Shown here piece after piece: positions 26,651-64,000 of a DNA stretch of 64,000 nucleotides. The stretch comes from Cytobacillus dafuensis (GTDB lineage: Bacteria; Bacillota; Bacilli; Bacillales; Cytobacillaceae), in the NCBI RefSeq assembly GCF_007995155.1, contig NZ_CP042593.1:600001-664000 (forward strand), read 5' to 3'. How positions within the stretch are numbered: the first letter of the stretch is position 1; every line of letters begins with the position of its first letter. A program made the translations under genes and the position numbers. The notes beneath the pieces were generated by a model. That model made no database searches. It saw only the letters and a list, made by a program, of their open reading frames with translations, and was not told the origin of the DNA.

Positions 26651-26671
26651 ATGTAAGTCGCTTTAATAAAT

Positions 26672-26748
<77 letters not shown>

Positions 26749-26752
26749 TTTA

Positions 26753-26829: not shown

Positions 26830-26852
26830 GTAGAAAAATACATTAATAATAA

Positions 26853-41034: not shown

Positions 41035-42724
<1,690 letters not shown>

Positions 42725-42806
42725 CTGCCTCTCAATCCCTTGATATGACTGGGTTTGTTGGTAAGATGAGAGTGGTTTGCTAACATTTTGCTAACATTGA
42801 GGTAAA

Positions 42807-43297: not shown

Positions 43298-43514
43298 TAA
43301 TTTTTGACCAACTAAGCACATACCTAGGGGTATATCAATATGAAAAAAACAGTATATAGTTTTTTTGCATGGAATAGAAATATTTTTAAAAAGCTAAACA
43401 CCGTTACATCAATATGTCTGCCATTACCATCCAAGCCATGTGATGTGTGCAGTTAATAATATTTATGGCTTATTAATAAACCTGTAAACAAATGCTAACA
43501 TTTCTCTTCCGATT

Positions 43515-43560
43515 AGAGGCTTCTCATTAATTGAGCAAATTTATGAGAAGCCTCTTTTTT
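43515..43560 (+). terminator. Terminator at the end of integrase remnant 2
   Basis: AGAGGCTTCTCAT/ATGAGAAGCCTCT perfect stem followed by TTTTT. It overlaps the end of the integrase frame; degraded versions are at 42811 and 45217. It would stop transcription coming from groEL. Confidence 0.85.
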
Positions 43561-43760
43561 CATTTCTTTCGTAACATGAAGATAAACGTTCTTAGTAGTT
43601 TCATCATCACAGTGACCTAATTGATCCTCTAAGGCGTACTCTCGCTTTTGCAAGTAACGATGTATGCGAATGGAGCAAAGTGTGAGGTGTCAGCTCTGAA
43701 TTTAATTCTGCTAACTTCAGTAATCCCAAGTAAGAACCCTTCGTTGTCAGCATAAACTCC
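43520..43760 (-). pseudogene. Tyrosine integrase remnant 2
   Basis: LLKLAELNSELTPHTLLHSH and TSLLAKA are recognisable as the His-x-x-Arg box of an integrase, now with several frame breaks and the catalytic Arg lost. Only about 75 codons remain. It is more decayed than remnant 1. Confidence 0.75.
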
Positions 43761-45123: not shown

Positions 45124-45214
45124 TTAACATTAAAAATCCTTATATATCAGGGGTCTAAAGGCGAAAATATCATTTTAGGTGCCGAAAAGGTGCCTGAACC
45201 TTTTCGAATAAAAA

Positions 45215-45480
45215 TTAGAGGCTTCTCATTAGTTGAGCAAACTTTTGGGAAGCTTTTTTTTCTGTCTTTTGTAATGTGTAAATAAACTTGCGTTGTCGTT
45301 TCATCTTCTGTATGACCAAGTCGATCCATAATTTCAAGTAATTCAACACCAGCTTCTGTTAACAAAGAAGTATGCGTATGTCTTAATGTATGTGGTGTTA
45401 ACCGTTTGTTAATAGAAGTTGTTTTCTTTAACAAGCTTTCCTTCCGATTTTCTATTGTCTTAATAAATTTACCAATATGA
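45215..45480 (-). pseudogene. Tyrosine integrase remnant 3
   Basis: KRLTPHTLRHTHTSLLTEAG and EIMDRLGHTEDETTTQVYLH keep His-x-x-Arg, GH and the tyrosine, but the protein starts inside KFIKTIENRKESLLKKTTS with nothing before it, so only about 85 C-terminal residues are left. It differs in sequence from remnant 1 and the intact integrase, so it comes from a separate insertion. It starts just after attachment site 2. Confidence 0.82.
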
Positions 45481-45719: not shown

Positions 45720-48521
45720 GTGAAATTTAAAGTATTTATCCATTTGTTGCTAGGGATTATGTTGGTTTTATCTACTGTTTCTCCAGAAATTGTCCTAGGA
45801 AAAGGGAATGATAGGAGCAGTTCTACTAAAGTAGAGGCAGAGACATCACAATTGCCGGATCAAAATGCGAAACAGTTAATAAACGAGGCAATGGAACAAA
45901 TTGAAGCATTTCCGGAACCTCAGGAAGTTCCCAAAAATCATAAACGAGTAGAATACGCGCTTTTTGAATTACAAGCTGCTGTTGACGGCAATTTTGAAAC
46001 AAACAATGCGATAAAGTCCTCAGAGTTTTTTGACCACAGCCTGAACTCATTGAACATCCTTGAAAACCACCCTCAGACTCCATCAGATAAAATAGACCCA
46101 GTCATAGATAAAGTTATTTCAGCAAACAGAATTGTTACCGATAAGCTTCTGACATTGCTTGAAAGCAATACAGAAATGTTTGATAAAAAAGTTCAAAAAC
46201 TGTTAGAGGAAGCCCATAAGGACTATGAAAAAGGCGTAGATTTTGAAACTAAAAATAACAGACAACAATCGATTCATTTTTACAAAAAAGCATGGACAAG
46301 CGCTCAAGAGCTAAAAGAAAAAGCAAAGCGAATTCTTGACTCGGATGGGGACGGTTTGCTGGATGAAGTAGAAAAGAAGTTAGGAACTAACCTGCAGGAA
46401 AAGGATACCGATCATGACGGATTGCTGGATGGATTTGAAATTTTACAGCAATATACCTCTCCGCTTAAGAAAGATACAAATAATGATGGGACGCCTGATG
46501 GGGAAGAGGATACCGATCAAGACGGTTTAAATAATTTCCAAGAACAAAAAGCGGGCACTAATCCGGTCTTAAAGGATAGTGATGCAGACGGTTTGGATGA
46601 TCATTTTGAATTAGTGGAATTCGGTACCTCCCCATTATTGAAGGATACCGATCATGACGGGTTGGACGATGCCGGTGAATATCATGCTGGAAGCGATCCT
46701 CATAAAAATGATTCGGACCATGACCGGCTATATGATGGGCTTGAAAGCTTTACCCAAACCTTTACCGAAAAAGAATCAGGTGTAGTCCTTGAAATCAGCG
46801 GAATAGGGGATCTATCACGAGCTGTTAAATTGATCAATGTTTCAGATCAAGTGATTTTCCAAGATGTTCCCGGAGCTGTTTCAGAGTTTGTTGATATTTC
46901 TTTAAATCAGGAATTTGAACACGCAACAGTTAAGATCCCGATTGAAAAAAGCGACATCCCGAATGGCGACCTTGAAAGTGTGAAGATGTATATTTATGAT
47001 AAAGAAAAGCACACATTCACCCCACTTGAAAAACAAAAAGTGGACGCTGAAAAGGGATATATCATCGGAGAAACGACTCAATTTTCCGTCTTTACGCTTA
47101 TCTATACACCTCAGTGGGAAGAGGCACAGCAAAATGAAGCTAGCAGTATAAAGACAAGCGCAGCCGGTTTATCCTACACCATTACCAATGATCCGGAAGT
47201 CGACGATTCGGATGGAGATGGATTGACTGATGAAGAGGAATTGTCCTATGGAACGCTGGTGTATTACCATGATTCGGATATGGATGGCCTGGATGATGGA
47301 AATGAACTGGATATGGGATTCAATCCATTTGAAGAAAATGCAGACGGGGATTCATTTACGGATCTTGAAGAGTTTAATAACAAAACTGACCCAGATATCT
47401 ACGACAAGGAATGGACCGATTATATTCAGGAACTGCTGCTAGGGGCGTCGGTGAACGAATTTGCTTCAACACTGGTCGATTGGGGCTGGATGGACGAGGA
47501 AACCTATGACTCTGTTGCCTTCCTGCTTGGGCAATTGGTTGCGGGGTACCTTGCGTATGGGGATATCGTTGAAGCTGCAGCTGAATTCACTCAAGCAGAT
47601 GTCGGTGCTGGATTGTTCGCCCTCTTTGGCTTTATTCCGGCTGTCGGTGATATTGGAAAGACCGTTGAAAAAGTCGTGAATTTCGTTAAACGGGTACCTA
47701 AAAACATCATCGCTGGGACCTATGAGATGATTCTTAAAAACTTTGCTGATCAACCAAAATTATTCTCAGCTATCCTTGATGCCATAACAGGCGGAGCATC
47801 TAAACAATTAAGAGATATGGGCTCTTCTGATAAAATGATAGCCCAGCTAGGGAAGAATGGAAATGATCTTAAACGAATAGCGAAGCTAACAAGAGCCAAA
47901 TTTGGTGACGAAACACTTAATGCGGCGCAAAAAGCAATCATTGACCGGAAGATTCGCGATCACTGGGGAACCAATCTGACCGCCAGAAAAAGAGCGGAAG
48001 CGTTTGGTACCGAAGCGGCCATTTGGTACTACGAACTGCTGGGGTATAAGCTTTTATATGCCCAGCGGGATAAAGATCCAAGGGTGAAGGCGCGCACGGG
48101 TCCAGATATTATCATGAAAACCCCATCCGGCGAGCTATTCATCATTGAAGCCAAAGGCTCCTACTCTAAAAACGGGAAGTTGAATGATGGCAAAAAACGA
48201 GGGGTGCGCTTGGCCTCAAAAGTCAGCGGGCAATACCGTCTATATTTATCGAGGGAATGGTTGACAACCAACAGCGAAAGGTACATGGATAAATTTGAAG
48301 ATGCTATCCGAAACAATACCATATCCCCAGAAGAGAAAGAGGCCTATGATCTATTAAAAGATGTGATTGATAATGGGGCATCCTACAAGAGTTCAGTTGT
48401 GTATGGAGGTATTCGGGATGCCAAGTCTGTCATCGAGGCGGGGAAAGAAATGGATGACTACCTCGAAAACATTCTTAAGGATACCGACGCAATTGATTTT
48501 ATTTTAATTCACAGCATTTAA
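45720..48521 (+). CDS. Secreted calcium-repeat protein with C-terminal nuclease toxin domain
   Basis: 933 residues. Signal peptide (about 1-27), helical region (about 45-205), then thrombospondin type 3-like calcium repeats at about 207-340 (DSDGDGLLDEVEKKLG, DTDHDGLLDGFEI and others) and about 480-545, with a beta domain between. A glycine-rich hydrophobic stretch, LFGFIPAVGDIGKTVEKVVN, resembles pre-toxin regions of polymorphic toxins. The C-terminus (about 790-815) has GPDIIMKTPSGELFIIEAKG, an Asp ... Glu-x-Lys PD-(D/E)XK nuclease core. The start is GTG 45720 behind GAGAGGAG. A probable immunity gene follows 65 bp on. Confidence 0.82.
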   Translation: MKFKVFIHLLLGIMLVLSTVSPEIVLGKGNDRSSSTKVEAETSQLPDQNAKQLINEAMEQIEAFPEPQEVPKNHKRVEYALFELQAAVDGNFETNNAIKSSEFFDHSLNSLNILENHPQTPSDKIDPVIDKVISANRIVTDKLLTLLESNTEMFDKKVQKLLEEAHKDYEKGVDFETKNNRQQSIHFYKKAWTSAQELKEKAKRILDSDGDGLLDEVEKKLGTNLQEKDTDHDGLLDGFEILQQYTSPLKKDTNNDGTPDGEEDTDQDGLNNFQEQKAGTNPVLKDSDADGLDDHFELVEFGTSPLLKDTDHDGLDDAGEYHAGSDPHKNDSDHDRLYDGLESFTQTFTEKESGVVLEISGIGDLSRAVKLINVSDQVIFQDVPGAVSEFVDISLNQEFEHATVKIPIEKSDIPNGDLESVKMYIYDKEKHTFTPLEKQKVDAEKGYIIGETTQFSVFTLIYTPQWEEAQQNEASSIKTSAAGLSYTITNDPEVDDSDGDGLTDEEELSYGTLVYYHDSDMDGLDDGNELDMGFNPFEENADGDSFTDLEEFNNKTDPDIYDKEWTDYIQELLLGASVNEFASTLVDWGWMDEETYDSVAFLLGQLVAGYLAYGDIVEAAAEFTQADVGAGLFALFGFIPAVGDIGKTVEKVVNFVKRVPKNIIAGTYEMILKNFADQPKLFSAILDAITGGASKQLRDMGSSDKMIAQLGKNGNDLKRIAKLTRAKFGDETLNAAQKAIIDRKIRDHWGTNLTARKRAEAFGTEAAIWYYELLGYKLLYAQRDKDPRVKARTGPDIIMKTPSGELFIIEAKGSYSKNGKLNDGKKRGVRLASKVSGQYRLYLSREWLTTNSERYMDKFEDAIRNNTISPEEKEAYDLLKDVIDNGASYKSSVVYGGIRDAKSVIEAGKEMDDYLENILKDTDAIDFILIHSI

Positions 48522-48586
48522 ACGAAGATTTAAGCAGGAAGGAAGGAGAAGCTCCTTCTTTTCCTGCATTTGTGAGGTGATCATAT

Positions 48587-49201
48587 ATGTCCAAAGAAAT
48601 AAAAATAGATGCCAACAAGCTGAGTCAAAAGGTTGAGTTTCTCGATTCAGTTGGCTTGAAGTCGTGGTCTGATTACGAGGCATATGCAAGATGTTTATCT
48701 TTTTTTGATGAAAAAGAAAAAGCCGCAGAGTATTTTATAGAGGCAGCGAAGCTTATTGAAAAACCAATAGCTGTCTTTGAAAAGAAGAACCAAAAAGAAT
48801 ACAGCCGTTTAAAATTGGTTCAAGCCAATTATTACCGCCTGGCAGGGGAGAGAGAGAAAAGTATGCAACAATATAGAGAACTCTCGAACCTGCTGGAGGA
48901 CTTATTTCATTATGGTGGGGACAAAGAACAAAGTGAAGGAGTGTTAACAAATCTCAGTTATTGCCATTTCTTTCTTTCAGACTACGAGAAGTCGATCTTT
49001 TTTGGAAAGAGGGTAAAAGAATGGGTTCCAATCTCACTGGGTTTTTCAGAAGGAATTTTCTATGATGATCAAGTAAGAATCGAAGCCACAATGGTCGATG
49101 TAATAGAAGACTTCAAAAGAGAAAAAAGTCTGCTTTATTATACAGGAGCAGAGGTTTCATTGTGGGACTGGTATGAGATTGGGAAAGATTTGCTAGAATG
49201 A
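48587..49201 (+). CDS. Probable immunity protein for the nuclease toxin
   Basis: 204 residues, no signal peptide, all-helical with TPR-like spacing: WSDYEAYARCLSFFDEKEKA, YYRLAGEREKSMQQYRELSN, LSYCHFFLSDYEKSIFFGKR. Acidic, as expected for a nuclease inhibitor. It lies immediately behind the toxin on the same strand with AGGTGA before ATG 48587. The role is inferred from position; the family is not one I can name. Confidence 0.65.
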   Translation: MSKEIKIDANKLSQKVEFLDSVGLKSWSDYEAYARCLSFFDEKEKAAEYFIEAAKLIEKPIAVFEKKNQKEYSRLKLVQANYYRLAGEREKSMQQYRELSNLLEDLFHYGGDKEQSEGVLTNLSYCHFFLSDYEKSIFFGKRVKEWVPISLGFSEGIFYDDQVRIEATMVDVIEDFKREKSLLYYTGAEVSLWDWYEIGKDLLE

Positions 49202-52046: not shown

Positions 52047-52664
52047 ATGCAGTATCACTTTTATCCTTTTCGACCTCATGGTGATCCTATGTTCCAAGAT
52101 GTTCCTCCTGCAAGCGGCTCCTATTATGTACCTGGATCTTATTCTGTACCTAGCTCCTTTTATGTACCAACCTATTCTGTACCTGGCAACTATTCTAAAC
52201 CCGGCTCCTATTACGTACCTAGATCTTATTCTGTACCTGGATGTAAAAAATGCAGGGATCTCCCACCAATAGATGTTGAGAGCTTGCCAATTGACGTCTC
52301 TACTGAGATGGAGTATGTTGACGAATGGGACATTCATAACAGGCAGCCACTTGTGGTGACGTGGCCGGGATCTCTCCGCAGGGGCGATTGTACGATGGAG
52401 GATAGAAAGCTTACCCTCTTTCCTGACGGAAGGGCCGTGTGGTATGCTCGAGTGAAGTCAAGTGGTTCAGGTGATGCATGGGTATTTTACGGTGGAATCT
52501 CTCTTAAAGACAGAAACGGCGCTGTACTTTGGACTAGTCCAAAGCTCGTAGGACCCCAAAATATGCCGGAAGACCGTTGGATAGAATGGAACCAGGAGTT
52601 CCCCTACCCAAAAGTTTGGTTTAGACATTTTGGCAAAGCAACAATTCACAAGCCGCACTGCTGA
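52047..52664 (+). CDS. Tyr/Pro/Ser-repeat protein with C-terminal DUF6294-like domain
   Basis: 205 residues. Residues about 23-65 are imperfect repeats of SYYVPGSYSVP type. The C-terminal domain, GDCTMEDRKLTLFPDGRAVW then GDAWVFYGGISLKDRNGAVL, is beta-rich and resembles DUF6294. Two Cys (CKKC) link the parts. No signal peptide. Repeats of this kind are found in spore-coat or surface proteins, but that is only a resemblance. AGGAGAGA precedes ATG 52047. It lies just before attachment site 4. Confidence 0.65.
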   Translation: MQYHFYPFRPHGDPMFQDVPPASGSYYVPGSYSVPSSFYVPTYSVPGNYSKPGSYYVPRSYSVPGCKKCRDLPPIDVESLPIDVSTEMEYVDEWDIHNRQPLVVTWPGSLRRGDCTMEDRKLTLFPDGRAVWYARVKSSGSGDAWVFYGGISLKDRNGAVLWTSPKLVGPQNMPEDRWIEWNQEFPYPKVWFRHFGKATIHKPHC

Positions 52665-52909
52665 CACAACGATAGTCGTTACTTCTGGGATGCACACTTA
52701 TAGGTTTTGCCTAAAAACATGGAATAAGAGCTGATAGCTGTGTAAAAGGTAAAGAAAAGTCTCCTCACCCAATGCTCATAAAAATGCTCTTAATTATGCT
52801 CATAGGTATTTTTTCTCCTGTTGTAAAATATTTTAAGTGAAAAATGAAAACCCTATAATATCAATGATTCTATAGATATATTTATACCTATTATTTACCT
52901 TGATGAATT

Positions 52910-52925
52910 GGCGGCATGATGTAAT
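52910..52925 (+). other. Attachment site 4
   Basis: ggcggcatgatgtaat, followed by CCTTGATATGACTGGGTT and the left arm seen after groEL (about 42735-42820), nearly identical over more than 80 bp. The intact integrase lies directly behind it. Confidence 0.82.
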
Positions 52926-53021
52926 AACGCCCTCAAACCCTTGATATGACTGGGTTTTGTAGTAAGATGAGAGTGGTTTGCTAACATTTTGCTAACATTG
53001 AGGTAAATTAACGGAGGCTTC

Positions 53022-54125
53022 TCATGAGTTCAGCGAACTTTTGAGAGAGGCTTCTTTTTTCATTTCTTGGGTTACGTGAAGGTATACGTTTTTCGTAATC
53101 TGATCATTGGTATGACCAAGCCTGTCCATAATTTGTTCGAGTGATACACCTGCCTCAGCAAGAAGTGACGTATGAGTGTGTCTTAGACTATGCGGAGTCA
53201 AATCTTCATTTAGGCTAGCTATTCTAAGCAGCCTTTTCATTCGGTCTCGGACATTTTTAATTATGATGGGATAACCAAATTGTCGTTCCATTTTGGCAAA
53301 AATAAAATCGTGGTTAAAATAAATAGTACCTAACCGCTCTATTACCCTTTCTTGAACCTTTTTATGCTCCTTCAAAGCCTCTATCACCTCTTCGTCTACA
53401 ATGATTTTTCTTCTTGATTTTCTTGTCTTTGGAGTAACCAGTTGAAATTTAAGCGCATTGTTGCTTGGATTGTAATACGTTTTCGTGATGCTGATCGTGT
53501 GGTTCACGAAATCGACATCCTTCCACTTGAGTGCCACTAATTCACCAACTCGAATACCAGTATAGGAAAGAACCAGATACATCAAGTAATCGTGTTCCAA
53601 ACCATGTTCCTTGGCTGTATTTAAAAACAGGGCAAGCTCTTCTTTTTCAAGATACTTTGGAACTTCTTCTTCCTCTAATTGTTCAATGGTTTTCTTATCC
53701 TTCTTTACATAAGCAAACTCTGTCGGATCCTTTTTAATTAGCTCCAATTCTAATGCTTTTCGGAAAATCATTCTTCCTGTGTGGTTGACTCCATCCCTTG
53801 TACTGTCTGAATATCCTTGATCCTTTAGGTCATTTAGCGCATCTTGATACATTTTTCTGTTAATGTCCTTTAATTTTAGCTGTGAGAAATAGGGTAACAA
53901 CTTACTGATTTCGTGTTCTCGTACTCTGATGGTTCCGGGCTTTACATCTTTTGCTTCGCTGTAAACGGGAAGCCACTCTTTTGTAAAGTCGCTAAAAATT
54001 TTATCTGTTTCCTCTAAATATGTTCCTTGGTTTAATTCATGAATTAGAGTGGCAGCAAATTCTTCAGCTTTTTGCTTAGTATTAAACCCGCTTTTTACCT
54101 TTAGCTCTTGTAGAATTTTTTGCAT
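53022..54125 (-). CDS. Tyrosine recombinase / integrase
   Basis: 367 residues. A short N-terminal arm-binding part (KSGFNTKQKAEEFAATLIHE), a SAM-like core-binding domain (about 43-140) and the catalytic domain with R192 (YTGIRVGEL), K233 (VTPKTRK), H312 and R315 (HSLRHTH), H338 (RLGH) and Y348 (TKNVYLH). All catalytic residues are present, so it may be active. AAGGAGG stands seven bases before ATG 54125. Most relatives have about 30 more N-terminal residues. The tail SLKSSLNS differs from remnant 1, probably by a two-base insertion. It likely serves the groEL-end sites. Confidence 0.92.
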   Translation of the reverse strand: MQKILQELKVKSGFNTKQKAEEFAATLIHELNQGTYLEETDKIFSDFTKEWLPVYSEAKDVKPGTIRVREHEISKLLPYFSQLKLKDINRKMYQDALNDLKDQGYSDSTRDGVNHTGRMIFRKALELELIKKDPTEFAYVKKDKKTIEQLEEEEVPKYLEKEELALFLNTAKEHGLEHDYLMYLVLSYTGIRVGELVALKWKDVDFVNHTISITKTYYNPSNNALKFQLVTPKTRKSRRKIIVDEEVIEALKEHKKVQERVIERLGTIYFNHDFIFAKMERQFGYPIIIKNVRDRMKRLLRIASLNEDLTPHSLRHTHTSLLAEAGVSLEQIMDRLGHTNDQITKNVYLHVTQEMKKEASLKSSLNS

Positions 54126-54267
54126 GTTGTAACCTCCTTTGAAGAGTTCGGAAACTTGAAATGACTTCCTTTGAAACTCCATATGATTCACATATTTCAT
54201 AGATTTTATAAAGATCTAGTTTGATAGTTTGGACTTCACTAGGATTTTGCTCTTTGCTCATTGGCAA
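54082..54267 (-). CDS. Small helical protein overlapping the integrase start
   Basis: 61 residues, mostly charged helix (DLYKIYEICESYGVSKEVIS, then a basic tail RRLQHAKNSTRAKGKKRV). AGAGGAA precedes its start. The last 44 bp overlap the integrase gene in another frame, suggesting coupling. Position and basic tail would suit an excisionase-like or regulatory protein, but no helix-turn-helix is clear. Confidence 0.4.
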   Translation of the reverse strand: MPMSKEQNPSEVQTIKLDLYKIYEICESYGVSKEVISSFRTLQRRLQHAKNSTRAKGKKRV

Positions 54268-54295
54268 TTCCTCTTTCTTTAAATTTTGAGAAGAA

Positions 54296-54351
54296 AAAAC
54301 CGCAGCACATGATGATCTCCAGAATGGATAAAATCAAGTAACTGCGGTTTT
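54296..54351 (-). promoter_or_regulatory. Hairpin with ACCGCAG/CTGCGGT arms in the integrase leader
   Basis: AAAACCGCAG (54296-54305) pairs with CTGCGGTTTT (54342-54351) around 36 nt. On the minus strand it is followed by T-rich DNA just before the 61-residue gene, so it could attenuate the integrase operon. Confidence 0.45.
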
Positions 54352-54535
54352 CGCTTGTTGGTTACTGGATCTAGGTGAATTAATTTACCGGTAAAATTCA
54401 TGAATCATAATATCTTGTGATTTTGCAGACTTTAATAGATAACAAATATTTATTTGGATGAAATTTTTGGTAAAATAAACAGAGAGATGTCGAAATGTGA
54501 AGAATAATGAAATTATCGATAAAGAAGGTATTACA

Positions 54536-54862
54536 ATGCGTGATCCAAGAAGGATTAAAAGAGTATTATCATTGCTCCAGCAAATATGGGAATATCAGCC
54601 GGACGTACGTTTTAACCAACTCATTAGCAATTTACAGAGCCTATATTCGCAGCAACACGATAATTACGGAAGACGTGAAGTGTATAAGAAAGAGTTCATT
54701 GATTTAGAGAAGGCTTCATACTTGGATTTCTTTTTTCTTGAAGACGATAAGTGGGAAGAATTTTTAGCCTCTTATCTTTCTAGTATCGAAGAAGCAAAAG
54801 AACAGTGGCAAGAAAAGATAGATGACCAGATGATAAATGAGGGAAATTATTACAAAAGCTAA
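54536..54862 (+). CDS. DUF1040-like small protein upstream of the primase-RT
   Basis: 108 residues opening MRDPRRIKRVLSLLQQIWEY, then QPDVRFNQLISNLQSLY, which resembles the DUF1040/YihD-like family (MRDP-x-R-I ... D-x-R-x-x-Q-L-I). A negatively charged helical C-terminus follows. I start at ATG 54536, seven bases after AAGAAGGT; GTG 54497 upstream is weaker. It is 64 bp from the giant gene on the same strand and is a candidate accessory or antitoxin-like partner. Confidence 0.72.
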   Translation: MRDPRRIKRVLSLLQQIWEYQPDVRFNQLISNLQSLYSQQHDNYGRREVYKKEFIDLEKASYLDFFFLEDDKWEEFLASYLSSIEEAKEQWQEKIDDQMINEGNYYKS

Positions 54863-54926
54863 ATCAATAAAATTTTTTATTGAAAATATAGATGACAAAA
54901 GCAATAAGGTAGGAGGGATTATTTTA

Positions 54927-57900
54927 ATGACTAATGTAAATCTGTTGAGCAAAAAAATAGATAATAATAATTTAAAGGAAATCTCTAAAGTACTTGAAAG
55001 GAGATTCTTTTATAATAAAGAAGCTTACGGGAAACAACAATTTGATGATAATAGAGTTGTTGTATATAAAACTATATATAATAAAATTGATCCTAATGTA
55101 ATCAAAAATGCTATAGAAAATAAGCAAGCTATAATGGCCTATCAACAAAAATTCGATAAATTAAAATGGCTCTGCCTTGATTTTGATATAAAAAGCTCTG
55201 TACTTTACGAGGATTATAATTTTCATGAAGATAGCCTATATAAACCAATGTTAATAAATGACCTACATAAGATAATAGAGACATTACATAATTACAACAT
55301 AAAATACTTGCTTGAATACTCTGGTAATAGAGGATTTCACGTTTGGATTTTTTTGGATAAAGAAATTAATAAACAGTTGGGTAGCACCTTGCTAAATGGC
55401 ATATTAAGCCTTACTAAGTTTGATTATATTGATAAAAAAGACAGTCCTATTACAGTAGATAAGTTCCCTAAAAATAATAAACCAAAGGGAAATAAAATTG
55501 GTCTAGGTGTAAAAGTCCCTCTTTCCTATCACTTGAAAAGTAATTCATATTCGTATGTGATTGATGATTATAAAAACCTCTTTCCTCTTATTGAGATAAC
55601 AGAGAAATTCTTAATCGATCAAAAACTTCTAATTGAACAAGTGGAGCATAACTCTGTTGATCGCCTAATTGATATCTTAAATATAAATTCCTTAGAGGAA
55701 ACTAAAGAGTTTGATAGAGTTACGGGGAAAACAGAAAGACAGTTTCATTTAAATCAAATAATTAAAATGTTATCGAAATGTAAAGTTTACGAGTATATAT
55801 TCTCTAAAGATATTAATCAGTTAACAGAGCTTGACCGCACAGTGCTTGTTGGGACAATAGTTAGATTAAAAACAAAAGATAACATAGCCTTTGGAAAGGA
55901 TTTGTTAATCGAGTATTTTTCACGTGATGCTGATATATATAACGAAGAAATTACGAAAGAAAAGCTTTTTTTAATGGAAAACTATTTTCCTCCTTCATTA
56001 ACCTATTTGCAAAATAAATATAATATAAAATGCAATTATTGCGAATCGCAATCAATATCTAATGTACTTGAGCTATTAGATGATATTGAAATTGAAACCA
56101 AGTCACAAAATTTAGATATCCTAAAATGGGTAATAAAGTCAGAGAAAAAATATTTAACTCAAAATGATGAAATACCTCTAAACTATGTATATGATAGTTT
56201 AGATAGCCTTAATGAAGAAAAACTTTCTCATTTGCTGGAAGAAATAAAGTTCGGAAAATTCCCTAATATCACTTTTAACAAATTTATTCGGAACGAAGAA
56301 GATAAAGAAAGGATTTTATTTGGTTTATCAGCAAGAGATCGTGTACTTACGACTGCAATTATGTTCGAAATAAACAAAATATTATATGGAGAGTTTAGTT
56401 CAAGTAATTCATATAGTTATAGGCTAAATTATGATTTTAAAAAAAATGATATATTTGTTAACTGGAATACGCTCTGGTTAAATTATGTAAAGGATATTGA
56501 GGATAAGATTTTAAACGAAGCATACGATAATTATTATATTCTTAAATTGGATATAAAGAGTTTCTACGAAGAAATTAATCAAGTTTTTTTGAGAGAAATG
56601 TTGTATAGTAAACCAACTCCAATGGTAGAACTAGTGTTAAGAAATTTAAATACTACTGAAAAAAAATTTTATATTAATATGTGTGAGTATTTAATCTATG
56701 CTGCTGAAAGAACCTCAGAAAAAGGCGTACCACAAGGACCAGCTTTTGCTCGTTATTTAGCAGAAATATATTTGTCTTCTTTGGACCGACTTATTAACAG
56801 TAAGCTAATAGAAGGATTCGAACATTATTTTAGGTATGTAGATGATTTGGTAATAGTTCTTGAAACCAAAGAGAAAGCTGAAGAATTATTTAATTTGATT
56901 AAAACTCATTTAGGGACAAGGGACCTAGAATTAAATCACAAGGTAAAGAAAGGATACGTTTCGGACTTAAAGTATGATGTAATAAGTCAGGATTTAGAGA
57001 AGTATTTTATTGATGGTATAGATGAGGCAACTGCACCTAAGAAAGTAATTGATAAGGCAATTACCCTATTAAACAAGATGTTTAGAAACCAAGAAGAAAA
57101 CATTAACATAAAGCATTTGCCCTTTTTTTTAACACATTTAATTAATAATGACTACATACAATCAAAACTTGAAGAAATAATATTAGAGATTACAAGTAGT
57201 ATTATAGGTAGAGGTAGTTTGTTTAAGCATTTTTATAAAAATATAATTTTTGGTAACCTTGAAAAAGTAGATTTGAAATTTTATGACCATATTTATGGGT
57301 TATCTAGAGCAAATTTCATCAATGAGTTATCAAGAAATATCGAAAAAGTACCAATAGTGACAATTGAACAAATATTGAAGTATTATGTAAATGAAGAATT
57401 GGAACCATACGAGAAGATAGAATTATACAGAGTAATCTTAAAAAGTGGATGTAATTTAAGAATCATCTATGATGAACAGGATTTGGATATTTTTATAATG
57501 TTGTTGCAACACACTAAAGCTATTAAATGGGATCAAGATTTATTAAATCAGATTCTTAAATATCTCCAGAGTATTGAAGATAAAATTAATATTCTCAAAA
57601 TCATGGATAAAATACTTACTAATTCTCATGAATTAGATGATAATACGAGACTAGTTGAAACTCTTTATATTACTTTATCTGAGCATGCTCAGTATGTATA
57701 TAAAGATCATATAAAACAATTAATATTTAATTTAATTGCGTACCTTTCTTTGTATATTGATGAAAATAAGATCATTGAAATTTGGTGCAACTTTCACAAT
57801 CTATATCAAATGACAGTGGAATCAATTAGTACTCAGGAATGGTATAACTACGAAAAACTTATAAATAAGAACCAAATCAAAGATGGGTCTGTAATTTTTA

Positions 57901-60263
57901 TTCTAACTAGGATCTTTAAGAAAGAAGGTATAGATCTTAACCTAGGTACAAATAAAACCGAGGAAGATTATGCTTTATATTTATTTCTTTATTTATTTGA
58001 AAATAAGGAATTTAGTGGTAGAGAAGAAATGAAGCATAAGGTAAGGGAGATTACTAAAGATAAAAATATACAGTTTCTTGATTGGTGTCTGAGCGAAGAT
58101 TCTAGATATTTCCCAAATGATGAGACCGCAATAAAAAACATTCGTTATAATAACCGAATAGTAATGATGAAAAATAATGAACTGTTAGTCCGAGGAAGAC
58201 CTGAAATATTTGTAGACTATAGTGAAAGTATTATTGAATCTGAAAGTTGGTATGACAATAGTCAATATAAATTTATGAAATTAAATATCCAAGAAAGATT
58301 AATGAACTTGGAAGAAAAAATAAATTCTATGAATTTGTTTAAGGCACTTGATTTTGTTCTTAAAGTTAAAAGTGAAAGTGAATTTAATGGTAAGTACGTT
58401 AATGTATTTGAGAGAGGTGCTTTTATAGAGTCAAATAATTCATTGAACCTTACATTTAGTAAATATGATAAGGTTTTGGTTTTAGAAAAATCAGAGCCAA
58501 TTTTAAATAATAAAGTTAAATTTACAGACGAATTAATTAATACTCTTTTAAAAGCAAGAATTGCTCCGTTGTCTTATACATTTGGTCCATTAGAATATCA
58601 CATAAATGTTAATGACTTTAAGGATGATTTTATACCTAAAAGCATAACTAATAATGAAGAAATAATTGTTTACTTAGAAATTTTTAATAATAATTTAGAA
58701 AAATATCTATTAACAGAAGGAGAAAATATTTATTCAATAGAGCTTTCAAAACTAATGAGTATTAGAGATTATGTAAATACAATTGAGAATAAAAAGAACC
58801 TTATATCAGATATAAGAACTAAAATACAAATAAATAGGTCTTCAAGTAACATCAAAATCCTAAATTTATATAATTCTCTTTACAAGAATAATACATTTGA
58901 GAAGCATCTAATCTATTCAGCTAGTAAAGTTAACGTAAATTCTTTAACTCAAGTTATAAATGATATTATAGGATCTATAAAGTCCAACATGGAGTTCGAC
59001 GATATAAACTTTATTGTTGATTTCTTAATAAAAGAATTGGCGAAAGTAACCAAATTATCTACTGATATTACTCAGCTTAATTTTGTTGAAATAGAAAGGC
59101 ATATTAATGACGAGTCATTAATTAAAATCTCTAAGATAGATTTTCCAATTGAAGACATATCTTTTTATGAATTCGGTTCTAATGAAGACCAAAAAGAACT
59201 TACATCGAAAGAAATTTACAGGCTATTAGATTTAAATTATCTCTATTTTGATGGGAATTTATTAGTTGCTTTACCAAATGCTTTAGGTAAGACAATAGAA
59301 ATTATAGAAAATAAAAAAGGTAACTACGATAAAAAAAATCTTGTTATAAATGCAACCATTAGAAATACAGATTATTATTTAGAGGCCTTGGATGTTATAA
59401 GACTACAAAGCGATGTTTCAAGAAATGAAGCCGACAGAAGATTAAATACATTTTTATTAGACGTTGAATCTAAATATTATGAATCGATTCTAAAAGTAGT
59501 ATCATCCTATAGATGTTTTACCGAGGAAGATATGAAATCGTTTGTAGATATAATTAAGGAAAAGGTTGATCATAGTAATGGTAATGATTGTTTCTTCCCT
59601 TTAAAATCAAAAAATGATGATAATGGTTTGCATCAAATATTATATTTAAGATATAAAGAAACATTCGAGAGAGATACAATTTATGAGAAAAGAATTAACG
59701 GTGACATCGATAAGTTAAAAAAGCAAAACAAATTTGATGAATTAATACTGATTTCTGATTTGGGATTAAGTGGTAGTCAATTGAAAAATACATTAAATAG
59801 TTATATATCTGTAACGAAAGGGAAGAATCTTAAAAAAGGCTTTCATACTATAAAAGATGGTGGCATCTTTAAAGATAATTTACTTAATTCAAGTCAAATT
59901 ACGTTTCTTAATTGTATCTATACGGATACTTTCAGGGAAACAGTAATTGAATATTTTATTAATGAGTTAGGTTATCCCGGTAAACTCAATTTTATAGGTA
60001 TAGAAATCTCTTTTAAGGAACATTTATTTAATACAAAGGTAAAGAATAAACGCCATAAAGATTTATTTATTGAATTTGTAAAAAAGTATTATTCTGCAGA
60101 AAATCTAAGGGTACAAGGAAAGTGTTATTTCGAGTATTTAGAACAAATTGAGAAGGCAGACACAAGAAATATGCTTATTGCAAGGTATAAGAGTATGCCT
60201 AAGTATCATAATGTTGTATTTACAAAAAATACCTCATTGCTAAAGTATAGAGATGATCAATAG
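54927..60263 (+). CDS. Primase - reverse transcriptase - PRTase-like fusion protein (UG/DRT-type defence candidate)
   Basis: 1778 residues, strongly AT-rich. Residues about 80-145 are an archaeo-eukaryotic primase core: metal motif WLCLDFDIK (D85, D87) and SGNRGFHVWIF (S132, H138), with a CNYC pair at 369-372. Residues about 465-700 are a reverse transcriptase: motif A LKLDIKSFYEEI (D542), motif B KGVPQGPAFARYLAEIYL (599-616), motif C FRYVDDLVI (YVDD 637-640). About 700-1590 is long and helical without recognised domains. Near 1606, LILISDLGLSGSQLKNTL resembles a phosphoribosyltransferase PRPP loop. Start ATG 54927 follows AGGAGG by ten bases; the frame opens earlier at 54837 inside the upstream gene. 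No intron RNA, maturase or endonuclease domain is seen, so a defence RT is more likely than a group II intron. Confidence 0.85.
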   Translation: MTNVNLLSKKIDNNNLKEISKVLERRFFYNKEAYGKQQFDDNRVVVYKTIYNKIDPNVIKNAIENKQAIMAYQQKFDKLKWLCLDFDIKSSVLYEDYNFHEDSLYKPMLINDLHKIIETLHNYNIKYLLEYSGNRGFHVWIFLDKEINKQLGSTLLNGILSLTKFDYIDKKDSPITVDKFPKNNKPKGNKIGLGVKVPLSYHLKSNSYSYVIDDYKNLFPLIEITEKFLIDQKLLIEQVEHNSVDRLIDILNINSLEETKEFDRVTGKTERQFHLNQIIKMLSKCKVYEYIFSKDINQLTELDRTVLVGTIVRLKTKDNIAFGKDLLIEYFSRDADIYNEEITKEKLFLMENYFPPSLTYLQNKYNIKCNYCESQSISNVLELLDDIEIETKSQNLDILKWVIKSEKKYLTQNDEIPLNYVYDSLDSLNEEKLSHLLEEIKFGKFPNITFNKFIRNEEDKERILFGLSARDRVLTTAIMFEINKILYGEFSSSNSYSYRLNYDFKKNDIFVNWNTLWLNYVKDIEDKILNEAYDNYYILKLDIKSFYEEINQVFLREMLYSKPTPMVELVLRNLNTTEKKFYINMCEYLIYAAERTSEKGVPQGPAFARYLAEIYLSSLDRLINSKLIEGFEHYFRYVDDLVIVLETKEKAEELFNLIKTHLGTRDLELNHKVKKGYVSDLKYDVISQDLEKYFIDGIDEATAPKKVIDKAITLLNKMFRNQEENINIKHLPFFLTHLINNDYIQSKLEEIILEITSSIIGRGSLFKHFYKNIIFGNLEKVDLKFYDHIYGLSRANFINELSRNIEKVPIVTIEQILKYYVNEELEPYEKIELYRVILKSGCNLRIIYDEQDLDIFIMLLQHTKAIKWDQDLLNQILKYLQSIEDKINILKIMDKILTNSHELDDNTRLVETLYITLSEHAQYVYKDHIKQLIFNLIAYLSLYIDENKIIEIWCNFHNLYQMTVESISTQEWYNYEKLINKNQIKDGSVIFILTRIFKKEGIDLNLGTNKTEEDYALYLFLYLFENKEFSGREEMKHKVREITKDKNIQFLDWCLSEDSRYFPNDETAIKNIRYNNRIVMMKNNELLVRGRPEIFVDYSESIIESESWYDNSQYKFMKLNIQERLMNLEEKINSMNLFKALDFVLKVKSESEFNGKYVNVFERGAFIESNNSLNLTFSKYDKVLVLEKSEPILNNKVKFTDELINTLLKARIAPLSYTFGPLEYHINVNDFKDDFIPKSITNNEEIIVYLEIFNNNLEKYLLTEGENIYSIELSKLMSIRDYVNTIENKKNLISDIRTKIQINRSSSNIKILNLYNSLYKNNTFEKHLIYSASKVNVNSLTQVINDIIGSIKSNMEFDDINFIVDFLIKELAKVTKLSTDITQLNFVEIERHINDESLIKISKIDFPIEDISFYEFGSNEDQKELTSKEIYRLLDLNYLYFDGNLLVALPNALGKTIEIIENKKGNYDKKNLVINATIRNTDYYLEALDVIRLQSDVSRNEADRRLNTFLLDVESKYYESILKVVSSYRCFTEEDMKSFVDIIKEKVDHSNGNDCFFPLKSKNDDNGLHQILYLRYKETFERDTIYEKRINGDIDKLKKQNKFDELILISDLGLSGSQLKNTLNSYISVTKGKNLKKGFHTIKDGGIFKDNLLNSSQITFLNCIYTDTFRETVIEYFINELGYPGKLNFIGIEISFKEHLFNTKVKNKRHKDLFIEFVKKYYSAENLRVQGKCYFEYLEQIEKADTRNMLIARYKSMPKYHNVVFTKNTSLLKYRDDQ

Positions 60264-60338
60264 GAAAGGTTGGAATATTTCCGAAAATATACTTAATGCC
60301 CAAGGGGATTATTTACATCGTTTTCACACAACCACACC

Positions 60339-60370
60339 AGAAACCCTTATAAAATAAGGGTTTCTATCCC
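60339..60370 (+). terminator. Terminator after the primase-RT gene
   Basis: AGAAACCCTTA/TAAGGGTTTCT perfect stem, loop TAAAA; the T-tract is weak (ATCCC), so termination may be partial. Confidence 0.65.
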
Positions 60371-60428
60371 ATTTATATCCCGACCACCAGTATCTTCAGA
60401 AAATGCTTGATTTTCTTCTTTTGAAAAA

Positions 60429-60464
60429 ATAAGACACCATTAAAAATAAGGTGTCTTATCTTTG
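60429..60464. terminator. Second hairpin downstream of the primase-RT gene
   Basis: ATAAGACACC/GGTGTCTTAT stem around ATTAAAAATAA, followed by CTTTG on plus. Confidence 0.65.
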
Positions 60465-60598
60465 ACTTACAGATTGAACTAACAATATTTAAGTTATGTA
60501 ATTTAGGATAGATACATACTTTTACTTAGATATCTTTATAAGCACTTTTTCCTGCATTCTTTTAATTTCATTGCCAAATATTCGGACTAAAGAGGAAT

Positions 60599-60961
60599 AT
60601 GCTCTTTTGGCATCAAACTAAAAAAATACATGGAATTAGGGGAGAAAAAGATCCTTATGGAAGTAAACTAAGATGGAAAACAACATATATCTGTGAAGAA
60701 TGAGATGAAGTTTGGGTTGCTAATTTTTGTAGTTCTTGTTCGTATGATAACAGAGGATTGAGAAATATGGTGATTAATGGGAAAAAACACAGATATCCAA
60801 GGCCTCTATATAAATATCCAGCCAATAATTTTAATATACAGGTTGAGGATAACTGGGATGTTCATTGTCCTACGTGCAATAAAACGGCTAACTATAGGAT
60901 AAATTTTATTACAAAAGATGATATTCTAAAAGGAACAATTATATTAGGTAAAAATCCTTAA
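60599..60961 (+). pseudogene. Zinc-ribbon protein interrupted by an in-frame TGA
   Basis: About 120 codons: MLFWHQTKKIHGIRGEKDPY, then KTTYICEE, TGA at 60701, then DEVWVANFCSSCSYDNRGLR and VHCPTCNKTANYR. Cys pairs on both sides of the stop (C-x-x-C twice) show that it was one zinc-binding protein. Lies between the defence candidate and a bare right arm, so it was probably the last gene of that island. Confidence 0.65.
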
Positions 60962-61063
60962 TGATAAAAAATTGCAACACCTGAATATTTACGCATATAA
61001 ACCGTGTAAATTCATAGTTGTTAAAAAAGTTAATGGTTATTTAAAATACCTGAAACTAATGGC

Positions 61064-61197
61064 TAACATTTTGCTAAAGCAATCCTTTAAAAAAAATGGT
61101 AAATCTCCGTTAAAGATGTTACAGCTAAAAACATCCAAAACGTTGATTTACCGCACTTTTTGCACTTGAAGTTAACAATATTACATTCTAGCAGACT
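61064..61197. repeat. Right arm without attachment core
   Basis: GCTAACATTTTGCTAAAGC, GGTAAATCTCCGTTAAAG, AAAACATCCAAAACGTTG, ACCGCACTTTTTGCACTTG and CTAGCAGACTAC match 63627-63757 closely, but where gggcggcatgatg should follow the sequence is aaaacattaa. It marks a former island end whose core was lost. Confidence 0.8.
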
Positions 61198-61322
61198 ACA
61201 AAACATTAATTTCTATCAAGAAAATATATGTAGTGGAAGTATTTAATTCGTGATAGTTGTATACACCTAGTGGACACTCATAGAAGGGCAGGCACGAAGG
61301 CTCACTGCTCTTTTTGTTGTTG

Positions 61323-61796
61323 TTATTTTTGCTTTTCGAGCTTAACCGTTGTAGTTGTCCCCATAGCAGAAGCCTCATAACTTAATACGCCGTTTTGATA
61401 TGTCATAGTTTTAGTATCATCACTTGAAGCAAGTAAAGCATTTTCAGTTATACTATGGTCATTTTTTGAATCCCATTTATAGGGCGCGTCAGTAGTTGTT
61501 GGAGCGACAAAAGAGCCAGCCCAATAAAGTGATTTTGTATCGCCTTTATCACTTACCCAATAAATTTCAATCGTATCACCGCTTATTGTAGCAGCTTGAT
61601 AAGATTCATCAGACTTGCTATTCGCTTGTTTCCATTCGCCCGTCAAGTCAGGTATTTGCTTTTCGGGAGCTTTGCTTTCAGTTGCATTTGTAGGGGGGGT
61701 GCCGCCGTTTCCCGAACTCTTCAGCGTGGAGCTACACCCCGTAAATAGGATCATGAGCAGAGCCATGCAAGAGGTAATAATTGCCGTTTTTTTCAC
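61323..61796 (-). CDS. Small lipoprotein
   Basis: 157 residues. Signal about 1-22 with lipobox FTGC; then a Ser/Thr/Pro-rich linker and a domain DLTGEWKQANSKSDESYQAA through TIEIYWVSDKGDTKSLYWAG, a lipocalin/beta-barrel-like fold seen in small Bacillus lipoproteins. Function unknown. GTG 61796 has AGGAGG nine bases before it, so the longer upstream frame is not used. Confidence 0.8.
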   Translation of the reverse strand: MKKTAIITSCMALLMILFTGCSSTLKSSGNGGTPPTNATESKAPEKQIPDLTGEWKQANSKSDESYQAATISGDTIEIYWVSDKGDTKSLYWAGSFVAPTTTDAPYKWDSKNDHSITENALLASSDDTKTMTYQNGVLSYEASAMGTTTTVKLEKQK

Positions 61797-61809
61797 TTTC
61801 GTTATCCTC

Positions 61810-61992
61810 CTAATTTTGATTTCTGTAGTAATCTTCAGACTCGTAAATGTTCGAACTTGAAATGCTATTTTTATGCCCACATTCCGTACATTGCCAGATA
61901 TATTTATGGTCATCAAAGCCTGACTGACCATTTAGGTATGAATTGCAACGGTCACACCTGCAATCAACATCAGGGAATCTTTCATTCTTAAG
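61810..61992 (-). pseudogene. Zinc-ribbon protein without a usable start codon
   Basis: 60 codons: FPDVDCRCDRCNSYLNGQSG and YIWQCTECGHKNSISSSNIY give two Cys-x-x-Cys knuckles of a zinc ribbon. AAAGGTGATT lies at ribosome-site distance from codon CTT at 61992, where a start codon is expected; no ATG, GTG or TTG is in frame. Either the start was mutated or it is very unusual. Confidence 0.5.
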
Positions 61993-62035
61993 CTATAATC
62001 ACCTTTCCGATAATCTGTAAGAATCAAATAGTCTA

Positions 62036-62479
62036 CTAGAACTTTTTAATTTGTTTTATAAGTGAACACTGCAATGCTTTTGAAATTGGAAGGTGAATGA
62101 TATGCTCAATAAGTTCTTCTTTTGTTTTCTCGCCTGTAGAGTAATCAGCCTTTAAAACTTTTCCGCCAATAAAAGATAGCATCTTTTGCGTGCCTCCATA
62201 CGTCGTTCCGGCACCGAGTAGCAGTGTAGCAATACCACCTTTTACACCCACACCGCCAATCCCGAAACCTTTCAGAGCTTGCAAAATGGCTGCTCCCCCA
62301 TTATAGCTTGATGTTTTTACTGCAAACTCAAAAACAGCATAAGGGATTGCAACTGAAGTTACTAAAGATATTACATTATCTAAACCTATTGGGAGATTCC
62401 TTTCTTGCTTTTCTTCAGTTATAATGGTTGATTTGTCCTCCTCTGATGTGTATTTCATAGTTAACGAGTTTGTATCCAT
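62036..62479 (-). CDS. Glycine-rich membrane-associated protein coupled to the MerR gene
   Basis: 147 residues. A polar N-terminus, then hydrophobic and Gly-rich stretches ISLVTSVAIPYAVFEFAV and GFGIGGVGVKGGIATLLLGA, and a charged end. The start ATG shares its A with the MerR stop (TAATG), so the two are translated together. Family not recognised; a membrane effector controlled by the MerR regulator is an inference. Confidence 0.65.
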   Translation of the reverse strand: MDTNSLTMKYTSEEDKSTIITEEKQERNLPIGLDNVISLVTSVAIPYAVFEFAVKTSSYNGGAAILQALKGFGIGGVGVKGGIATLLLGAGTTYGGTQKMLSFIGGKVLKADYSTGEKTKEELIEHIIHLPISKALQCSLIKQIKKF

Positions 62480-63360
62480 TATCTTCGTCCTCCTTCTTCT
62501 TCTCTTTGCTCCACCGTAAAATTGTCACAATAAACCTGAATTGCTTTTGCTATATAATCAGTAGTTTCTTTTCCGAGACTACTGGTGAACAACATATCAA
62601 CATCTCCTCCAGCTGCGAAAGTTTTCCCAATCAGTGAAAAGTTGCCGAGTGACATAGGATGATCCTTATCTTTGTTCATATAGTCATACAATTTTTCAAC
62701 ATGCTCCTGCACCTCTTTTGAACTTACATCCTTGTCGACAAATTTCATAAATTCATCCATCAACTCGTTATTTGTCCGTATTTCGTTAAAATCGGTAACA
62801 CTTAATATGTTTTTTGCCATTTCAAGTATTTCAAGTAATTCAGATGTCTCATACTCGTACCACTCCTTTTCCGGTAGTGTGAGAAGTTCTTCAGCTTTTT
62901 GAATTAATTTAGAATCAAGAGGATTATTTATTCCTTCTGTATTATTTGTAAACATATTCATGTTATAAGTGTTTTTAGATTTCTCTATAAATTCCTCAAA
63001 TGTAATATCACCGTATTCTTTAAAATTGAGAGGAATGATTCCAGTCAATTTAATTGTGTTTGCATATCCAATTAGATTCTCTAACCGCGCCTTTTTTTTA
63101 TTTAATATTTTAATTTGGTTTCCTATCGAATCTCTCAGGTCAACGTCTGGATTATTCATCATCTCCTGAATATCATTTAGTGAGTATCCCAATTCACTCA
63201 ACAATAAAATCTTAAAGAGCTTTTCCACTGCCATATCATCATATAGTCGATAACCAGACTCTGTGCGTACTGTTGGTGATAAAAGTCCAATTTCATCATA
63301 ATAATGCAGAGTACGCCTAGTCACGCCAATTGATTTACATACTTCGTGTACCTTCTTCAT
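62479..63360 (-). CDS. MerR-family transcriptional regulator
   Basis: 293 residues. N-terminal MerR helix-turn-helix, VHEVCKSIGVTRRTLHYYDE then IGLLSPTVRTESGYRLYDDM, a dimerisation coiled coil (about 85-120) and a C-terminal domain of about 170 residues resembling TipAS-like ligand domains (EWYEYETSELLEILEMAKNI). AAAAGGAGG precedes ATG 63360. The promoter upstream has the MerR layout with a dyad in the spacer. Confidence 0.9.
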   Translation of the reverse strand: MKKVHEVCKSIGVTRRTLHYYDEIGLLSPTVRTESGYRLYDDMAVEKLFKILLLSELGYSLNDIQEMMNNPDVDLRDSIGNQIKILNKKKARLENLIGYANTIKLTGIIPLNFKEYGDITFEEFIEKSKNTYNMNMFTNNTEGINNPLDSKLIQKAEELLTLPEKEWYEYETSELLEILEMAKNILSVTDFNEIRTNNELMDEFMKFVDKDVSSKEVQEHVEKLYDYMNKDKDHPMSLGNFSLIGKTFAAGGDVDMLFTSSLGKETTDYIAKAIQVYCDNFTVEQREEEGGRR

Positions 63361-63386
63361 AAGAAGTCCTCCTTTTAATTAACTAT

Positions 63387-63417
63387 AGTTTATACTATCA
63401 CGTAACGTTACAGTCAA
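63387..63417 (-). promoter_or_regulatory. MerR-type promoter with operator dyad
   Basis: On the minus strand TTGACT (63417-63412), then GTAACGTTAC (63411-63402), a perfect palindrome, then TATAAA after 17 bp or TAAACT after 19 bp. Long spacers with a central dyad are the MerR hallmark. Confidence 0.65.
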
Positions 63418-63626
63418 CCTTTATTAATATTTTTAAAGTGGACTGTACGAGAAGGTTTGATTCAAAGGAATGGGTAGTTTAAAATAAAATTAAGTTATTA
63501 GGAGAAAAACGATGAAATAGTGAAAATTTGTTGATATGTTCCCTCAAATGGAGACATCCATTTTGTCCATTCGACCCAAGTAGAGTGTGAAAACAACTGT
63601 ATCAACATATCTGTTTGAAGTTGCTA

Positions 63627-63774
63627 ACATTTTGCTAACGTCTTCCCCCGAAAAACGGTAAATCCTCGTTAAAGATGTTACAACCAAAAACATCCAAAAC
63701 GTTGATTTACCGCACTTTATGCACTCAACGTTAACAATATTACACTCTAGCAGACTACGGGCGGCATGATGTGA
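63627..63774. repeat. Right arm and attachment site 5
   Basis: GCTAACATTTTGCTAACG, GGTAAATCCTCGTTAAAG, AAAACATCCAAAACGTTG, ACCGCACTTTATGCACTC and CTAGCAGACTAC, then ggGCGGCATGATGTGAT at 63759-63774 (one base differs from groEL, TGTAAT to TGTGAT). Probably the outer right end of the island row. Confidence 0.8.
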
Positions 63775-63852
63775 TGCTTAAAAAACTACTCATACCAAAG
63801 GTTTGGGGGCGGTGGATTGTGGTTTGTTAACATTGGAGTTATGAATTGTAGC

Positions 63853-63900
63853 AAATACAAACAGCCATCATTGTATAGGTGCTGGCTGTTTGTATTTTTA
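63853..63900 (+). terminator. Strong terminator after attachment site 5
   Basis: AAATACAAACAGCC pairs with GGCTGTTTGTATTT, followed by TTA. It may be the original groESL terminator, now 21 kb from groEL. The rest of 63775-64000 shows no gene. Confidence 0.8.
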
Positions 63901-64000
63901 ATCAGTTGGACTTAACCCTACCGGTTTAAGAAATAAATTCTATGTTGGAAGGAAGGATTATTTTTTTGTTGGATTTAAACCCATACCTATCCTAAAAATA

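Follow-up and report, generated by a model that had tools for sequence, protein, structure and literature searches.

The question raised by this locus is to which kind of system a protein belongs that joins a primase, a reverse transcriptase (RT) and a phosphoribosyltransferase (PRTase)-like end in one chain, and what its long C-terminal half might contribute. The locus lies in a stretch of 64,000 nucleotides of the Cytobacillus dafuensis genome (contig NZ_CP042593.1, positions 600,001 to 664,000), referred to here as the window, in which a single forward-strand frame at 54927-60263 comprises 1778 codons with no internal stop. Judging by profile comparisons and an RT tree, the protein is a member of an already described kind, UG10/DRT7. 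While the protein kind is known, two points look worth testing: what its end is, and a version in some other bacteria that is encoded by two genes. A preliminary description of the locus had named the primase, the RT, the UG10/DRT7 group, the PRTase-like end and the island cargo, all of which stood; its suggestion that the end and the long middle may be undescribed was overstated, as both are standard for the RT_UG10_large family.

Membership in the UG10/DRT7 group

The gene and its N-terminal domains are as follows.

54927..60263, + strand: UG10-large (DRT7-type) primase-RT-PRTase-CE-like protein, 1778 amino acids (aa), matched over its full length by RT_UG10_large
54911..54917, + strand: ribosome-binding site AGGAGGG, 9 nt 5' of the start codon (from the sequence)
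55068..55577, + strand: archaeo-eukaryotic primase (AEP)-type primase-polymerase core, residues 48-217, with D85, D87, H138 and D178 (Pfam, PDB sequences, NCBIfam)
56325..56942, + strand: reverse transcriptase, residues 467-672, with D542, PQG and YVDD (Pfam, PADLOC, conservation)

The start at 54927 is favoured over another in-frame ATG at 54837 because AGGAGGG sits 9 nt before it. Translation located every motif at the place given in the preliminary description: LDFD with D85/D87 and SGNRGFH with H138 in the primase, LDIKSFY with D542, VPQGPAF and YVDD (637-640) with D639/D640 in the RT, and the phosphoribosyl pyrophosphate (PRPP)-loop-like ILISDLGLSGSQ, which terminates at Q1618. Both N-terminal domains were supported by sequence profiles. 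For the primase, Pfam reported AEP-TOTE at residues 48-217 (E 1e-14), NCBIfam reported PrimPol_Msp, a CRISPR-associated primase-polymerase, at 26-344 (E 3.2e-23, under its cut-off), and the nearest primases among PDB sequences were 7nqd/7nqf (E 1.9e-10, or 1e-20 using a family profile). We take these entries to be the CRISPR-associated primase-polymerase; the PDB lists them as a TPR_REGION protein. For the RT, Pfam reported RVT_1 at residues 467-672 (E 2.4e-14) alongside the intact motifs. Beyond residue 680 of the full-length protein, the only Pfam match was DUF5824 (E 0.23).

Relatives were collected by a protein search, in which 7991 candidates were scored and 26 relatives were found (27-65% identity, 60-100% coverage), and by scanning genome contigs with two peptide patterns, which yielded 46 UG10 loci. 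The comparison of 66 UG10 sequences, which omits P0007, P0018, L050, L065, L068, L071 and L075 as partial or broken, comprises 50 large proteins (at least 1500 aa), four of 1116-1138 aa (P0024, P0025, L033, L035) and 12 small ones (826-866 aa) that consist of primase and RT. The genes of L033 and L035 stop 110 and 64 bases short of a contig end, beyond which a partner may lie. The primase residues D85, D87 and H138 are conserved in 49 of the 50 large relatives, the remaining one having a gap, and the RT residues D542, D639 and D640 in all 50. The catalytic residues of both domains are all conserved in the four mid-size and 12 small proteins, and the valine of YVDD is present in 66 of 66 rows. 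The number of relatives and the near-universal catalytic residues speak against a chance architecture.

The PADLOC model RT_UG10_large (2023) matched residues 16-1777 over profile positions 2-1686 of 1688 with 1595 bits, and it was the best match for each of five protein pieces scanned separately, bearing out the proposed UG10/DRT7 placement. Residues 800-1110, 1110-1480 and 1480-1778 matched it with E-values of 1.8e-62, 5.9e-52 and 3.6e-72 and matched no other PADLOC model at E <=0.1, while the RT piece scored 512 bits compared with 84 bits for the best non-UG10 model. In the RT tree, the 66 UG10 rows share one side of a branch (support 90/93) opposite 32 other RTs, which are not named singly and come mostly from the window's class; for other UG groups, the comparison was limited to profile scores. 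Clustering with group II introns or retrons, an outcome named beforehand as contrary to the proposal, was not seen. The 12 small UG10 form one group (100/99). A primase fused N-terminally to an RT, the arrangement that characterizes UG10/DRT7, was found with Pfam, PADLOC and NCBIfam alike. Excerpts of the literature agree with this placement: UG10 was named from G2L-3, with the valine in YVDD as its mark (PMC4244168, in part), its primase fusion is already in print (PMC8934634, in part), and it is called DRT7 in a preprint title that PMC13174585 cites. Summaries in parts of PMC13213688 and PMC13314766 describe DRT7 as an RT-primase-polymerase fusion and mention preprint evidence, termed provisional, for protein-primed, protein-templated synthesis of poly(A)/poly(T)-rich DNA. 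Reports cited in parts of PMC13174585, PMC13213688 and PMC13314766, some of them preprints, ascribe to DRT7 an anti-phage function and a DNA synthesis that is template-independent or protein-templated.

The system is rare. A full-length UG10 match was found in one of 398 genomes of the class, the best other genome reaching 61 bits over 152 positions, and among 193 genomes of the family only the window's own contained UG10 at E <=1e-100. In viral contigs, 19 stretches fit a pattern and none was a relative; phages matched at the RT level only (seven records). Three plasmid records matched, one of them UG10-like, and a plasmid search with the small-UG10 partner of L047 returned none. The UG10-like stretch lies at 262-2676 of the Peribacillus muralis plasmid NZ_CP017081.1, close to the record start, and covers 44% of the query with 33% identity. 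Some individual loci deviate from the common form. In Pseudoduganella aquatica, a second, convergent RT frame lies directly 3' of UG10 (L054:15409-16800, - strand), and the UG10 of Chryseobacterium sp. CH21 is split into several frames (L065:9977-15567). Two divergent UG10-like proteins (L072, L073) have C-termini that cannot be aligned to the PRTase-like domain; by eye, these C-termini appear to be membrane-bound. Their ends being unalignable, both were dropped from alignment A5 (25 rows; alignment A4 has 27), and L034 and the P proteins were left out of A4 and A5.

The C-terminal half and its two-gene counterpart

The second half of the protein contains the following regions.

57384..59366, + strand: middle, about residues 820-1480, with RT_UG10_large as sole PADLOC match
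58047..58511, + strand: conserved core of the middle, about residues 1041-1195, common to the small-UG10 partner gene (hhalign 96.1, E 3.5e-9)
59424..60260, + strand: PRTase-CE-like C-terminal domain, about residues 1500-1778 (Pfam, hhalign with controls)
59742..59780, + strand: degenerate PRPP-loop motif LILISDLGLSGSQ, residues 1606-1618 (translation, alignments, conservation)

The clearest signal comes from the end of the protein. When the last approximately 280 residues were compared alone with Pfam, PRTase-CE (PF24390) was the single family matched (E 0.022). Of 25 UG10-large C-termini, 12 matched this family at E <=10 and two the next one, and among ten C-termini scanned singly, those of L037 (30.5 bits) and L067 (28.8 bits) exceed the PRTase-CE cut-off of 27 bits, L051 and L052 being weaker. 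A profile comparison between the UG10 C-terminus and seven PRTase-CE proteins gave an hhalign score of 96.0 (E 4.5e-9) and was co-linear over 242 columns. As controls, 40 column shuffles scored at most 0.3, the reversed profile 0.1 and seven other regions of the UG10 protein no more than 3.1; with the nearer relatives taken alone, region 1480-1778 scored 80.7. The PRTase genes L078, L079 (encoding P0030) and L080 are matched by PRTase_III-A, the PADLOC model of the type III-A retron effector, and L079 and L080 adjoin RTs with a VTG motif, a retron mark according to part of PMC4244168. Type III retrons encode a PRTase and a DNA-binding winged-helix protein (PMC12548924, in part). Homology of the UG10 C-terminus to PRTase-CE, the family of the type III-A retron effector, is well supported by these profile comparisons. 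A protein search with the C-terminal profile, covering 3405 candidates of suitable length, returned no standalone non-UG10 relative; its two matches, aligned to 1574-1778 and 1578-1778, are probably pieces of UG10 proteins.

Within the domain, K1560, D1564, G1567, R1582, D/E1611, G1616, Q1618 and R1753 are conserved in 46-50 of the 50 large relatives. The UG10 loop reads D...SGxQ, with an acid at 1611 in 49 of 50 (44 D, 5 E), S1615 in 41, G1616 in 49 and Q1618 in 47, and the DD pair of retron PRTases is invariant in the seven PRTase-CE proteins compared.

For the middle, a profile self-comparison returned no internal repeats, run without a positive control, and a search of PDB sequences gave nothing except a designed helical construct (E 0.16). 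Class 1 UG RTs carry HEAT-like alphaRep (PMC13174585, in part), and such a structure may be present in the UG10 middle.

Among small UG10 loci, a same-strand gene lies directly downstream in all ten examined in detail and encodes 854-1111 aa in nine of them, the one of L060 being interrupted. Taking the longest frame, the partner's start falls inside the first gene in seven loci, 3-28 bases from its end, and beyond that end in two, at distances of 29 and 53 bases. Across the 15 small-type loci, which are these ten plus L048, L049, L050, L068 and L071, the partner gene was found in 13 (L046-L049, L058-L064, L068, L070), the one of L049 being truncated by the contig end; it was not found in L050, where the gene runs off the contig, or in L071, a fragment. 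L068 and L071 are incomplete; their RT gene, and not the tree, was the basis for counting them as small. The neighbourhood comparison included 25 of the 46 loci and the window as large and ten as small, with L033, L035, L048, L049, L050, L065, L068, L071, L072, L073 and L075 omitted.

In a profile-profile comparison, nine partners matched the C-terminal half of large UG10 with a score of 98.3 (E 1.8e-14, 586 columns). Their profile scored 95.6 against the PRTase-like domain of the large protein, 0.3 against residues 1-800 and at most 0.4 in 30 shuffles. When the nine were scanned with PADLOC, the one of L046 matched RT_UG10_large at 974-1677 (E 6.2e-10), another had one weak different match and seven had none; in Pfam, no two of the nine shared a family (best E 0.0056). 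Since the small-UG10 partner corresponds by homology to the second half of the large protein, UG10 appears to consist of a polymerase module and a C-terminal module that are either fused or split. In the literature searched, the main UG10 papers not being among it, this two-module or split arrangement is not described, and no claim is made that it is unpublished.

Proposed mechanism and its rivals

The data show UG10 membership, catalytic residues that are intact, homology to PRTase-CE at the profile level, a fused and a split form, and a mobile setting. Beyond these, a mechanism can be proposed towards which we lean with modest confidence. Here, the large UG10 (DRT7-type) protein would be a one-protein, two-module anti-phage system. 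Residues 1 to about 820, with primase-polymerase and RT, would form a DNA-making module, and residues about 820-1778 a module terminating in a diverged PRTase-CE domain. Upon infection, the RT would initiate DNA without a nucleic-acid template, and the primase-polymerase would help to build or complete its product. The state of this DNA or of the polymerase module would control the PRTase-CE-like domain, which would arrest or kill the infected cell. That this domain is the effector and controlled by DNA is inferred by analogy: the PRTase-CE-like module may act as the effector or regulate it, since the closest relatives known for this module are effectors of retrons, restrained by the RT complex, a general retron logic summarised in part of PMC12548924.

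Several observations weigh against this proposal. The window C-terminus alone scores 15.1 bits for PRTase-CE, under the Pfam cut-off of 27; for this reason it is labelled PRTase-CE-like and not listed as a PF24390 member, although the PRTase-like end first proposed is upheld by hhalign. The full-length protein has no PRTase-CE match in Pfam at E <=1, nor do six of ten C-termini of relatives, and the C-terminal profile retrieved zero PRTases from PDB sequences. The first acid of the retron-PRTase DD pair is missing, the window protein having S1610 at a position that is variable. The split partners retain only D...xG.(A/S)T of the loop and resemble retron PRTases weakly (4.0 for the whole, 27.0 for the C-terminal part), and among the split loci, L047-L049 are near-copies. 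As the first acid is gone and the split partners keep little of the loop and of the similarity to retron PRTases, the domain may not be catalytic. On the literature side, a part of PMC12596737 puts the DRT7 primase at the C-terminus, the opposite of its N-terminal position here, and DRT7 summaries such as that in part of PMC13213688 speak of DNA products, not of this domain.

The chief rival to the effector reading takes the synthesised DNA itself as the weapon, a mode of action summarised for DRT4 and DRT9; the PRTase-CE-like domain would then be no more than a sensor or scaffold binding nucleotide or DNA ends. A loop that lacks one acid and is further degenerate in the split partners, together with the weak similarity of these partners to retron PRTases, would fit such a role. 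The eight domain residues kept in 46-50 of the 50 large relatives are nevertheless more than a scaffold seems to need, and the closest non-UG10 relatives found are retron effectors. We consider this rival possible, if somewhat doubtful.

The remaining alternatives concern the kind of system and are far less probable. Since the primase domain matches AEP-TOTE and the CRISPR-associated PrimPol, the protein could be a CRISPR-adaptation or TOTE-type primase-polymerase instead of a defence-associated RT. For the whole protein, however, PADLOC gives UG10_large 1595 bits and PrimPol 45 bits, and no cas gene was present among the neighbouring open reading frames (ORFs) scanned (seven against PADLOC, ten against Pfam), CRISPR arrays not having been searched for, which leaves this alternative very improbable. 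The alternative of passengers joined to an RT of the group II intron or retron kind is practically negligible. The RT does distantly resemble the group II maturase (TIGR04416, 62 bits against a cut-off of 300), but UG10_large exceeds every non-UG10 model for the RT piece (512 against 84 bits), the tree places it with UG10, and its YVDD has the valine described for UG10 (PMC4244168, in part). Rfam reported no match in 52500-64000 at gathering score, so neither an intron RNA nor an msr-msd RNA was seen.

Returning to the two-module effector proposal, its wider form holds that UG10/DRT7 combines a primase-RT module with a PRTase-CE-derived effector module, in one giant protein or, in one clade of mainly Firmicutes, in two adjacent genes, so that two distinct RT defence systems would have wired DNA synthesis to the same effector family; we see the chances of this as evenly balanced. 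The uncharacterised end of DRT7 gains a testable identity and a comparison partner in the retron PRTase effectors, whose mode of action was termed unknown in 2022 (PMC9122126, in part). In the split form, the halves are separate genes in some bacteria, allowing polymerase and effector to be expressed and mutated apart. Small UG10 may also be catalogued as a lone gene though its partner is usually present.

Island setting and comparison with known systems

The following features surround the UG10 gene.

41080..42723, + strand: groEL, 547 aa (Cpn60_TCP1, E 3.5e-80)
52913..52925, + strand: attachment core GGCATGATGTAAT, putative left end of the UG10 unit
53022..54200, - strand: intact tyrosine integrase, 392 aa (Phage_integrase, E 4.8e-29), preceding the UG10 gene
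54497..54862, + strand: 121-aa ORF, a passenger without specificity for UG10
63763..63775, + strand: one-mismatch copy of the attachment core, at which the present unit probably ends on the right

The island with an intact integrase proposed in the preliminary description was confirmed and extended. On the sequence evidence, the UG10 gene sits in a tandem array of islands (integrative elements) at the 3' end of groEL, whose last codons and stop form the attachment core. The 13-base GGCATGATGTAAT occurs in six exact copies in the 4.9-Mb genome, on one strand and all between 642712 and 678791. Copies lie at window positions 42712, 45111, 49346, 52913 and 63763 (one mismatch) and at genome positions 667848 and 678779, and a displaced groEL end was recognized by eye at the right-most one. 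Integrase remnants related to the intact integrase adjoin two other copies (42704-43296, 43512-43723, 45214-45464). The UG10 unit appears to span 52913 to about 63763; a right-end repeat at 61092-61199, which lacks the core, suggests an older unit end near 61.2 kb. The core is present in 33 of 36 genomes of the genus, mostly in one to three copies, and the loci L032 (a fragment), L038, L051, L060, L061 and L067 have tyrosine-integrase-like ORFs no farther than 6 kb from UG10.

The 121-aa ORF was ruled out as a UG10 partner, having a match in 12 of 193 family genomes (own included, E <=1e-5) compared with one of 193 for UG10, and none at E <=1e-3 in the other UG10 loci compared. Scans for promoters (51 found, 47.4 expected) and terminators (2 found, 1.5 expected) were at chance level. 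Elsewhere in the same array, L101:6044-7603 (genome 666044-667603) encodes a type II cytosine methyltransferase, extended at its C-terminus by a long part that looks restriction-enzyme-like by eye. A 933-aa protein with TSP3 repeats at 45720-49201, its end nuclease-like by eye alone, is followed by a 204-aa gene, and the two are possibly toxin and immunity. Eleven tRNA genes are clustered at 25726-26926.

Compared with known systems, the window protein is closest to PADLOC RT_UG10_large, with which it has domain order, full length, YVDD, primase, middle and C-terminal domain in common; no feature was found that sets it apart, and its nearest full-length relatives are 60-64% identical. With RT_UG10_small it has the primase, the RT and the side of the RT tree in common, whereas the C-terminal half fused here is a separate downstream gene there. 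The AEP core is also that of the CRISPR-associated primase-polymerase (7nqd/7nqf), yet it is one domain of a far larger protein here, and no CRISPR setting was seen. The type III-A retron PRTase effector (PF24390, with PF24409) has a homologous domain, co-linear with the C-terminus over the 242 columns. There, the PRTase is a separate gene beside a retron RT and its loop reads DD..GSG, whereas in the window protein it is fused to a UG10 RT and the UG10 loop reads SD...SGxQ.
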